Below are positions 60,269 to 64,000 of a stretch of DNA of 64,000 nt, one piece after another (position 1 is the first letter of the stretch; the number at the start of each line of letters is the position of its first letter). Position numbers and translations under genes: made by a program. This DNA comes from Opitutia bacterium (GTDB lineage Bacteria > Verrucomicrobiota > Verrucomicrobiia > Opitutales > Opitutaceae): positions 62,001-126,000 of the forward strand of contig JACPIT010000010.1 in assembly GCA_016187945.1 (NCBI GenBank), written 5' to 3'. A model generated the notes under the pieces. That model worked only from the letters and a program-made list of their open reading frames with translations, was not told the origin of the DNA and ran no database searches.

Positions 60269-63200
60269 TTAGTAGTCGCTTTTGTTCAGCGGCGGACGCT
60301 TCCCAAACTTACTCTTGTATTCAAGGATTCGTTGATGCTGCCAAGTGTGCATGTCCAGCTTAGATCCATGGCGTTCAAAGACCATTTCTGCATCGATCGC
60401 TTTGAGATATTTCTTGGAGTAGCGCTTCAATCCTCGCGTGGTTTCACCGAACTTTAGAATTTCGCCGGTCGACCTGTTGCGCAGGGTGTATCCGATCGCC
60501 GGTTTGGTTGTTTTCAGGCTATTTCCATGAACTTTTTGAACCTGAGGAAGAGCAACTTGGGACTCCGCTGTAAGGAGAATGGCTCCACCAGTGATACCCG
60601 CGTAGATGATCGCGTCAGATGACAGATCAATGAATGCCTGCGCCAGCAAATTGCCGCTGAAGTCGCCCTCGGTGAGGCCAAAATCATCCATTAGTTCCAG
60701 CGCATCCTCGTAATTACCTAGCGAGGTCACCGAAACCGGCGAGTAAGGATCTATGCCAATTTTTTCAAATACGCCCTCGAGCGCACCCCGAACCACGGGT
60801 TTCGCTATGGCATAAATCGTCGCGATAGCAGCAACGGTGACCGCGACCTCGACTAACGTGAAGTTGCCGGTGGGATCATTGAAGCGAACTGGAGAAGCAT
60901 GCGCGTAAAGGTATTTGTGCAGGGACGTGGGATCCGCGGCTGAACCTTCGTAGGTGTCGTGATTCCAGAAGCGGCCGGTGGATTGGTTGTAGAAGCGGGC
61001 GCGGAGGTAATACTGGCCTAGGTCGGTGTCGAAGCGTTCGCCGCGGTAGAGGTGGTCGCTGACCGTTGAGCCGACGCGGTGGAGCAGGTTGCCGAAGGCG
61101 TCGTAGTCGTAGGCGTCGGTGATGCTGCCGCTCGCGTCGGTGAGTTCGCGGACGCTGGCGAGGCCGTCGTAGGTGTAGTAGTTGAGAGTTGAGGGTTGAG
61201 AGTTGAGAGAGGTCGACTGGCTGATGAGGTCGTTGCCGTAGGCGTAGAGCTTCACCGTGGTGCCACTGGCGGTGTTGATGCGCTCTTCCAACACTTGAGC
61301 GTAGCCGGTGGGATTTACCGCGTCGGTGAAGTAGCCGGTGGCGCTGACGAGCGTGGCGGCGGCGTTGAAGAGCGTTTTTTGCCGCAGGATGCCGTCGGCG
61401 TCGTAGCTGAGGTTCACCGTGGTGCCGTCGGGCTTGCGGCGGATGATCAGGCGGTCTTCGAAGTCGTAGACGTCCGCGTTCGGCACGTTCGAGAGCGTCG
61501 AGGTGAGCGTGTTGCCGTTGGCGTCGTAAGTGTCGGTGTTCAGCCAATCGCGCGCGTTGTAGCTCAGCCCAACTTGAGAGCTCAGATTTGAAATCTGAGA
61601 CGTTCGGCTCTCGCGGTTTCCGACTTTGTCGAGGCCGTAGGTGACGGCGCCGTTGTTGCCGTGGCTGTCGCTGGCGACGGTTTCGCCGGTCAGGCGGTAG
61701 AGGTCGTCGTAGTCGAATGTCGTCGTGCGCGTGCCGTTCTCGACAATCTGGCGACGGTGGCCGGAGGCGCGCAGCTTGTATTCGTAGCTGTGGAGCGAGG
61801 TCGTGTCGCGGGCGACGTTCAGCGTGCGCAGGCGGTTGAGCGCGTCGTAGCCGTAGGTGTGCACGACGTTGTTCGGAGCCGTGATAGTTTCGAGGCTGCC
61901 GTTGGCGTTGTAGGTGTAGGAAGTAGTTGAGGGTTGAGAGTTGAGAGCTGAGAGAGCTGAAGTGTCGTCGACGTAGGCCAATCGGTTGGCGTCGTCGTAG
62001 CGGTAACCGAGTTTGATGCCGTCGCTGTTCGACGAGGTGATGCTCTCGAGCTGGCTGTTGGCGTAGTAGGCGTAGGTCAGCTTGCCGAGCGCGGTGTCCT
62101 TGTGAGCGCGGCGGTTGCGTTCATCGACGGGGGTGTCCTCGGCGTAGAGCATCGTGGTCCCCTTCTCCACCGTCGCGTCGGTGCGGTTGCCGGTGGCGTC
62201 GTAGCCGTAGGTGATCTTGTCCGGCGCGTGCGAGTAGATGAGCGACGGGTGCGAGGGATCGGCCTGCTTTTCGGTGAGGCGGTTGCGGACGTCGTAGAGG
62301 AACGTCGTGGTGTAGCCCTTGAAGTCGGTGCGTTTCCAGAGATTGCCCCACTCGTCGTATTGCAGGGACTCGAAGGCGACGTCGGGTAGCGTGCGCTTCA
62401 CGCGGCGGCCGAGCGTGTCGTAGCGGTAACTGGTGGTGTGGCCGCGCGCGTCGGTCTGCGTGAGCTGGTTGCCGAGTTCGTCGTAAGCGAACCTCGTCGA
62501 TACGAGGTTCGCAGTTGAAGGAGCCAAGTTGAAGTTGAAGTCGCCCGCCGCGAGCGATTGGTCGAGGTATTGGCGGACCTCGACGAGGCGGCCGAGGCCG
62601 TCGTAGCGATAGCGTGTGACTTTGCCTTCCTGGTCGGTGGCGGCGATGCGCTGGCCGAGTGCGTTGTAGGTGGTGACGGTTTGCGTGGACGGGTGCTCGT
62701 CGGTGGCCGGGTAAACGACGGTGCTCGCGCGGCCGTGATCGTCGTAGCGCGTTTCGACGGTGTTGCCGCGCGGATCGGTCACGAAGCGGACGTTCCCGGA
62801 GGCATCGTATGAATACGACGTGATGAGAGTTGAGGGCTGAGAGTTGAGAGTCAGATGCTGGATGCTCTGCTTCCGTCGCCCTGCGTCCGGAGTTCCGTCC
62901 GGGAAATAGACCACCGACGTGCGGTGACGGAGCTCGTCGTAGGTGTCGGTCACGTGACCGACGAGGTCGTAGACGGTCTCGGTGTAGGGATTGTCGGCGG
63001 TATTGGCCGGCGTGGCGTCGGGCTGGATCGTGAAGCGCAGGCGGCCAACGTCGTCGTATTGGAACGAGGTGCGGCGGCCGAGCGCGTCCTCGGTCCACTG
63101 GCGACGATTTTCGAGGTCGAAGCTGCTCGTCTCCGTTGCGCCGTCAGGATGCGTGACGGTGGTCTGGTTGCCGCGCGCGTCGTAACCGTAGCTCGTGATG

Positions 63201-64000
63201 CGAGCGAGCGAGTCGTTGCGCGACTGGTAATCGGCGACGCTGCGCCAGAGCAGCGACTTGTCGGTTTGGCCGAAGGACGTGTAGCGCGTCTCGGAAACTT
63301 TCTCGTCAGGCTGAATCGTGGCGACGAGGCGGTTTTCCGCATCGTAGACGTAGCGCGTCACGATGTCCTCGGTTCCGCCCTCGGGTAGCGTTCGGCGCGC
63401 GATGCTCGCGATCATGTTTTCCTGTGCATCGTAGAGCGAGCGCGTGGTGCGGAGGATGGTCGCAGAGGCGTTGGCCGGATCGGAACCGGCGGCGCCGGCG
63501 GGATCGGTGACAGTGACCGCGACTTCCTTCACTGCGCCCGGATAAGTGGCGTCGGAGAACGCGTAGTTGTAGGTGTGGCTGGTGACGTTGCCGAGGGCGT
63601 CGGTGATCGTGTCGAGCGTGCCGTCGGAGTTGTAGGTGTAGGTTGTGGTCGAGGGCGCGCTGCTACCCGCGGCGATCGTGTGCGTGAGCAGGTTGTTGGT
63701 CGTCGCGTCGTAGCTGAACGTCTGCACGCGGCCATCGGGGTCGGTGATCTGCGTGGGAGCGCTGCGGGCGTTGTAGATCGTCGACGTGGTGTGGCCGGTG
63801 GTCGGGTGCGCGGGATCGTCGCTCGCGCTGGCGCCGGTGGTTTCGACGACGACGTTGCCCTGCGCATCGTAAGCCATCGACTTCACGTTGCCGTAGTGAT
63901 CGGTCTCGGTCTTCACGCGATCCGAGTCGGCGTAATAGCTGTAGCTCGTGCGTGCGCCGAGCGGGTCGATCTTGAGCGTAACGTTGCCGCGATCGTCGTA
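60269..64000 (-). CDS. RHS/YD-repeat polymorphic toxin with C-terminal URI/GIY-YIG-like nuclease tip (5' end outside window)
   Basis: At least 1244 residues, open to the right edge. Dozens of YD repeats ('YDALNRL', 'YDAFGNLLHR') form the cocoon-like shell. The RHS core 'RGERFDTDLGQYYLRARFYNQ' and 'HKYLYAHASPVRFNDPTGN' end near 60870. Beyond it come two hydrophobic stretches ('VAVTVAAIATIYAIAKPVV', 'AIIYAGITGGAILL'), then a tip of about 85 residues: 'GYTLRNRSTGEILKFGETT', 'AEMVFERHGSKL' and 'GKRPPLNKSDY'. The Y/G-rich opening strands and 'KFGET' fit the URI/GIY-YIG nuclease fold used by several polymorphic toxins. Heptamer DNA repeats are inserted in frame at three places. The cognate immunity gene follows. 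Nuclease activity is inferred. Confidence 0.88.
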   Translation of the reverse strand, partial: YDDRGNVTLKIDPLGARTSYSYYADSDRVKTETDHYGNVKSMAYDAQGNVVVETTGASASDDPAHPTTGHTTSTIYNARSAPTQITDPDGRVQTFSYDATTNNLLTHTIAAGSSAPSTTTYTYNSDGTLDTITDALGNVTSHTYNYAFSDATYPGAVKEVAVTVTDPAGAAGSDPANASATILRTTRSLYDAQENMIASIARRTLPEGGTEDIVTRYVYDAENRLVATIQPDEKVSETRYTSFGQTDKSLLWRSVADYQSRNDSLARITSYGYDARGNQTTVTHPDGATETSSFDLENRRQWTEDALGRRTSFQYDDVGRLRFTIQPDATPANTADNPYTETVYDLVGHVTDTYDELRHRTSVVYFPDGTPDAGRRKQSIQHLTLNSQPSTLITSYSYDASGNVRFVTDPRGNTVETRYDDHGRASTVVYPATDEHPSTQTVTTYNALGQRIAATDQEGKVTRYRYDGLGRLVEVRQYLDQSLAAGDFNFNLAPSTANLVSTRFAYDELGNQLTQTDARGHTTSYRYDTLGRRVKRTLPDVAFESLQYDEWGNLWKRTDFKGYTTTFLYDVRNRLTEKQADPSHPSLIYSHAPDKITYGYDATGNRTDATVEKGTTMLYAEDTPVDERNRRAHKDTALGKLTYAYYANSQLESITSSNSDGIKLGYRYDDANRLAYVDDTSALSALNSQPSTTSYTYNANGSLETITAPNNVVHTYGYDALNRLRTLNVARDTTSLHSYEYKLRASGHRRQIVENGTRTTTFDYDDLYRLTGETVASDSHGNNGAVTYGLDKVGNRESRTSQISNLSSQVGLSYNARDWLNTDTYDANGNTLTSTLSNVPNADVYDFEDRLIIRRKPDGTTVNLSYDADGILRQKTLFNAAATLVSATGYFTDAVNPTGYAQVLEERINTASGTTVKLYAYGNDLISQSTSLNSQPSTLNYYTYDGLASVRELTDASGSITDAYDYDAFGNLLHRVGSTVSDHLYRGERFDTDLGQYYLRARFYNQSTGRFWNHDTYEGSAADPTSLHKYLYAHASPVRFNDPTGNFTLVEVAVTVAAIATIYAIAKPVVRGALEGVFEKIGIDPYSPVSVTSLGNYEDALELMDDFGLTEGDFSGNLLAQAFIDLSSDAIIYAGITGGAILLTAESQVALPQVQKVHGNSLKTTKPAIGYTLRNRSTGEILKFGETTRGLKRYSKKYLKAIDAEMVFERHGSKLDMHTWQHQRILEYKSKFGKRPPLNKSDY
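61181..61209. repeat. Heptamer repeat array 1 in RHS gene
   Basis: On minus, four units of CTCAAC(T/C)C phase encode 'SLNSQPSTLN' just before 'YYTYDG'. Confidence 0.8.
61926..61954. repeat. Heptamer repeat array 2 in RHS gene
   Basis: The same 7-nt periodic sequence encodes 'ALNSQPSTTS' just before 'YTYNANG'. Confidence 0.8.
62825..62850. repeat. Heptamer repeat array 3 in RHS gene
   Basis: The same family encodes 'TLNSQPSTLI' just before 'TSYSYDASG'. Confidence 0.8.

Follow-up and report, generated by a model that had tools for sequence, protein, structure and literature searches.

Four-heptad arrays in an RHS gene of an Opitutaceae bacterium are probably copies of a tiny dispersed DNA element

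A gene for an RHS/YD-repeat protein in an Opitutia bacterium carries three nearly identical arrays of a heptamer within its coding sequence, which raises the question of whether such arrays are variable repeats, selected peptides or something else. The gene was encountered in a 64,000 nt stretch of genomic DNA (the window), where it occupies positions 60269..64000 of the minus strand and is identified by Pfam and NCBIfam matches. Its open frame runs past the window and, when followed beyond the edge, comprises 2363 codons. The original prediction was of CTCAACY arrays that lie in frame within this gene, on its coding (minus) strand, and three such arrays were confirmed, with 0.00 matches expected in the window by chance (100 shuffles). 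Array 1 (61181..61207, minus strand) reads CTCAACT, CTCAACC, CTCAACT, CTCAAC and encodes LNSQPSTLN. Array 2 (61926..61952, minus strand) reads CTCAGCT, CTCAACT, CTCAACC, CTCAAC and encodes LSALNSQPST, and array 3 (62822..62848, minus strand) reads CTCAACT, CTCAGCC, CTCAACT, CTCATC and encodes LNSQPSTLI. Measured against (CTCAACN)3CTCAAC, the arrays have zero, one and two mismatches respectively. Each holds four units, not the three originally counted. The placement of LNSQPST just before a Y-x-Y strand can be seen in the peptides SLNSQPSTLNYYTYDG, LSALNSQPSTTSYTYN and LNSQPSTLITSYSYD.

Two further insertions had been proposed in the same shell. The segment at 62505-62540 corresponds to a degenerate stretch of CTTCAAC type and, after it, a hairpin, GCGAACCTCGT atcg ACGAGGTTCGC (62487..62541, minus strand). 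The right arm of this hairpin lies in the conserved STRFAYD codons, and both stretch and hairpin are shared, imperfectly, with the RHS orthologue of a relative, G007. The segment at 61573-61604 contains a palindrome around CTCAGATTTcAAATCTGAG (61575..61597, minus strand); it exceeds the length seen in RHS orthologues by no more than one codon and is not clearly an insertion. The C-terminal region of the protein (60269-60870), which lies past the YD core and ends in GKRPPLNKSDY, matches no Pfam or NCBIfam family, and a search of the window against Rfam gave no matches.

The arrays are not confined to this gene. A search of the 5.47 Mb source genome (G000) for the heptamer revealed the array throughout, in both coding and intergenic DNA. 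The exact three-unit pattern matches 43 times, arrays are spaced at about one per 50 kb, and extrapolation from 15 arrays in 800 kb gives roughly 100 copies per genome. Among short arrays in G000, a period of 7 stands far above the shuffled control. Because CTCAACTC is mirror-symmetric, a reversed-pattern control is not independent and matched the same arrays (149 control matches versus 161), and we relied on Markov and shuffle controls instead. Dispersed copies lie within many G000 genes, as expected for the small repeat tolerating coding DNA that had been suggested. Genes whose identity was checked by homology include those for UvrA, DnaE (two arrays), ValS, a MiaB/RimO-type methylthiotransferase and ProA, the last assigned by family model; a further array lies in a gene for a RecD-like helicase, identified from sequence only. 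Proof of genic location is limited to the homology-checked genes, as no gene finder was used and long open frames mislead at 66% GC.

In the reverse orientation, three units are enough to bring a TGA into each frame, which restricts coding copies to the CTCAAC orientation; in the inverted partner found in DnaE, one unit now reads GTTCAGA and the stop has been removed. All three frames of the permitted orientation are used, giving LNSQPST, SQPSTLN or LSTLNPQ. Most genic copies are solo. Inverted pairs, 13-120 nt apart, also occur, and some of these lie between genes.

These data bear on the possibility that the peptide itself is what is maintained, as a flexible linker of the LNSQPST type. The peptide is indeed Ser/Gln/Pro-rich and linker-like and is placed in loops. 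In an AlphaFold model of the RHS fragment (three sequences), which is of low confidence (pLDDT 59) and does not include the array 1 region, arrays 2 and 3 map to loops that separate predicted strands. However, the G007 RHS orthologue, which is 58-60% identical, has no array and carries unrelated residues in all three loops, while other genes use all three frames and the same DNA also occurs outside genes. The use of every frame, together with the existence of noncoding copies, argues that the peptide is not selected, and we regard selection for a linker as highly improbable. Moreover, no property of the arrays specific to RHS was found, and this gene is one among many that have accepting loops.

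Comparison of orthologous sites reveals both filled and empty versions of the same loops. In ValS, an identical 30 nt loop without an array is present in 12 relatives, and the array is present in G000, G001 and G005. The UvrA loop measures 45-54 nt in 17 relatives, with one array in G002 and two arrays in both G000 and G001. The DnaE loop is 6 nt long in ten relatives and is occupied by an inverted pair in G000, G001, G005, G013 and G015. Filled and empty sites are likewise found among orthologues of the MiaB/RimO-type protein, and one intergenic pair is absent from G007. The RecD-like loop is occupied in G000 and G015 by a CTCAAC array, in G007 by a CTCAGC array, in G003 and G012 by a CCCATC heptamer array, and in G001, G002, G005 and G006 by GTAG-type palindromes; it is 21 nt long in G004. 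This loop hosts differing small elements by species, namely two heptamer families and GTAG-type palindromes. A separate observation concerns three genera (G005, G033 and G016), in which arrays lie at apparently the same gene position, just before an F-F-P-S-Y motif; in G033, a 14-bp hairpin extends into the motif codons.

The best-supported account of these patterns is that the RHS arrays probably derive from a tiny DNA element, dispersed over the genome, that spreads by being copied whole to new sites. This element is about 30 nt long and comprises four heptads, 5'-CT(CTCAACY)3CTCAACT-3'. The filled and empty sites, together with the unrelated G007 RHS loops, lead us to see the CTCAAC arrays as invading DNA retained where it is tolerated. 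Insertions into genes would survive only if they bring no stop, keep the frame and fall in a flexible loop or linker; elsewhere, copies would persist beside start codons or in intergenic inverted pairs. The LNSQPST-type peptide in the RHS shell thus looks like a tolerated by-product of the invading array, and the array itself looks like neither a contingency repeat nor a selected peptide.

An ordinary microsatellite, arising and changing in place through slippage, is a rival origin, and the arrays might then be contingency loci; that they may vary in length had been suggested in the original prediction. Heptamers are over-represented among simple sequence repeats in bacteria (PMC4692102), arrays of five and six units exist, and a homologous intergenic CTCAGCT array, a true variable-number repeat, has 16, 10 and 13 units in the congeners G000, G001 and G007. 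Nevertheless, array length is nearly fixed. In an 800 kb sample of G000 that was picked regardless of pattern and seeded on any two exact units, 12 arrays have four units, two have five, one has three and no array has two. Pooled samples of this genome (n = 55) contain 3, 46, 5 and 1 arrays of three, four, five and six units, and again no two-unit array; the Markov control produced only three two-unit seeds across five 1.2-Mb shuffles. Among six related genomes (congeners and family relatives), 24 of 25 arrays have four units, and some two- and three-unit arrays occur in G015. Four units are also modal in other phyla and viral contigs, although these samples were fetched by a pattern requiring at least four units and the scarcity of shorter arrays there is partly ascertainment. 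Orthologous sites keep four units between species, for genome pairs that are at most about 87% identical (the closest being about 82-87%). Apart from the one long intergenic array, neither the differences in unit number between relatives nor, in G000, the broad length spread including two and three units that would mark a contingency microsatellite was found.

The ends of the arrays are equally well defined. The boundaries follow CT-(CTCAACY)3-CTCAAC-T, and alignment of 32 arrays gives the consensus C-x-G-[TG]-CT-CTCAACT-CTCAAC[CT]-CTCAACT-CTCAAC-T, with C at position -2 in 31 arrays, T at -1 in 28 and T at +28 in 24. Sequence common to the 32 arrays ends at about 34 nt. The four-unit length peak and the sharp ends disfavor a slippage repeat. 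Furthermore, irregular units are preserved at orthologous positions, unlike those of repeats homogenized by slippage: G000 and G007 share an identical ProA array, down to the variant last unit, and some arrays are thus old. Empty sites in UvrA, DnaE, ValS and the RecD-like gene contain no partial array. On balance, an origin as an ordinary microsatellite is unlikely.

A further feature is present at one end of some arrays. Of 55 arrays in G000, 11 have a perfect hairpin (stem 7-14, loop 3-4) within 0-2 nt of their 3' end, compared with an expectation of 0.56 for randomly placed positions of this DNA; the excess had caught attention in G000 before it was put to the test. None of the 55 arrays has a hairpin on its left side. 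Single examples were found in G001, G002, G007 and G033 and, by eye, in DnaE of G005 and RecD of G015, but the excess is absent from sampled blocks of G015 (0 of 21) and from other phyla (2 of 98, about 1.2 expected). Hairpin sequences vary by site. The right arm enters conserved codons in DnaE, at one UvrA site (compared with G001) and, by eye, in an E2-like gene, and for this reason the left arm reads as an inverted, snap-back copy. The right arm of the ValS hairpin differs from the sequence of the empty site, which indicates that native templating is not universal. We infer that new copies arise by templated insertion. In such a scheme, the end of a polymerase would snap back on the flanking strand and copy a few bases, giving rise to the hairpin; it would then copy an array from elsewhere and rejoin the original strand.

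Units also differ systematically between genomes. Three-unit matches to CTCAAC versus CTCAGC number 43 and 14 in G000, where all 14 belong to one long array, 11 and 39 in G001, 7 and 25 in G007, and 95 and 5 in G015. At one UvrA site, the spacers of G000 and G001 are alike, and all four units have changed from A to G. Such dialects could be explained if the heptads were functional sites for an RNA- or DNA-binding factor whose specificity has altered between species. This explanation would account for units at shared sites changing together and for inverted pairs persisting although their units have diverged. It would also fit the simple observation that part of the intergenic arrays end 4-30 nt before the ATG of a long ORF, a location that recalls the TAACTGA repeats (PMC4679880). 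Against such a role, many arrays lie deep within genes with no regulatory role in view, arrays are gained and lost between species, and in relatives the same slot can hold a GTAG-type palindrome or a heptamer pair of unrelated sequence. A role as factor-binding sites therefore seems about as improbable as slippage.

A bolder extension of the copied-element reading, which we advance only tentatively and consider doubtful, is that some dedicated process writes four-heptad arrays of about 28-30 nt by template switching in many phyla, leaves a snap-back hairpin at one end and rewrites existing arrays to the dialect of the species. Were this true, both arms of an inverted pair would change together, and unrelated heptamer families would swap at one site. 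One intergenic site, at C12:558610-558686 in G001 and with 92-98% identity in its flanks, carries an inverted heptad-like pair in G000 and G007 and a pair of different sequence in G001. G000 also contains other four-unit heptamer families of the AAAATCG, AAGCTCC and ACAGAGG types. The sequence ATTTTCGATTTTGGATTCTCGATTTTCGATT is near-identical at several G000 loci, mostly as inverted pairs (C9:1.0-1.4 Mb; 1062525, 1294762 and 1313111).

It is also conceivable that a larger mobile element, for instance a MITE or a RAYT/IS200-type element, carries the arrays along, perhaps as its ends, and moves them by its transposase. The inverted pairs resemble REPINs, and GTAG-type palindromes that occupy the same loops are known within genes of Opitutus terrae, including both of its uvrA genes (PMC3733652). 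In addition, viral contigs contain heptamer arrays in 101 stretches, versus 15 and 0 for two permuted heptamers, a difference that marks this heptamer as unusual. However, the solo state of most genic copies and the limit of shared sequence at about 34 nt speak against a larger vehicle. Most relatives have genes for Y1 transposases (PF01797) whether they carry many or few arrays, and the counts of these genes do not track array counts. We consider a passenger origin very unlikely. GTAG REPs themselves share with the copied element what is probably the same bacterial family, a presence in uvrA and DNA repair genes, in-frame insertion and an occurrence as monomers and inverted dimers. They differ in being GTAG-tagged palindromes tied to RAYT transposases, whereas the CTCAACY array is a direct repeat; the consensus of the 32 arrays has neither GTAG nor an internal palindrome.

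By its unit and its dispersal, the CTCAACY element belongs to the class of heptamer repeats, and it behaves like in-frame invaders. Heptamer direct repeats of the TAACTGA type are known from Beggiatoaceae, cyanobacteria and Bacteroidetes (PMC4679880), and GGGAATC repeats occur in Xanthomonas and Nostoc, with Calothrix repeats among the cyanobacterial STRRs (PMC4692102). Like CTCAACY, which forms dispersed short arrays of a 7 nt unit, these repeats are found at many sites, with some reverse copies in ORFs, inverted pairs, mixtures of related units and no known mechanism; they often stand just before start codons, as part of the intergenic CTCAACY copies do. TAACTGA sets, however, mostly have two to three units and are intergenic, whereas CTCAACY arrays are fixed at four, with many deep in housekeeping proteins, and a fifth of them are followed by the one-sided hairpin. 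Rickettsia palindromic elements (reviewed in PMC10969869) are similarly selfish-looking and lie in frame in many unrelated essential genes, as CTCAACY does in those for UvrA, DnaE, ValS, the MiaB-type protein, the RecD-like helicase and ProA. Those elements are palindromes of about 100-150 nt with a conserved peptide; the CTCAACY element measures some 30 nt and can be read in all three frames, and no palindrome of that size with one peptide was found among its copies.

Elhai and colleagues reportedly described, in 2008, small dispersed repeats of 21-27 nt in Nostoc that are apparently mobile and occur in heptamer-rich genomes. No enzyme is known to move them. These repeats are likewise very small and mobile-looking, but they are not known to be heptad arrays themselves and their sequence is unrelated. 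The CTCAACY element has precise ends as well, and the filled and empty orthologous sites suggest that it too is mobile. Text searches of the literature for the heptamer string returned only unrelated primer-type matches, and a search for heptameric repeats in Verrucomicrobia returned none. Heptamer repeats, intragenic REPs and Rickettsia palindromic elements were known before, while the fixed length, the hairpin and the species-specific dialects are new.

Bacterial heptamer repeats have so far been without a mechanism, and here they act as fixed-size insertions that carry a mark of polarity. The combination of orthologous empty sites, fixed size and such a mark makes the origin of heptamer repeats testable. 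The loops of a replicative polymerase, of UvrA and of an aminoacyl-tRNA synthetase are repeated landing places for several families of tiny elements, and such landings in the loops of core proteins are a source of in-frame protein change.
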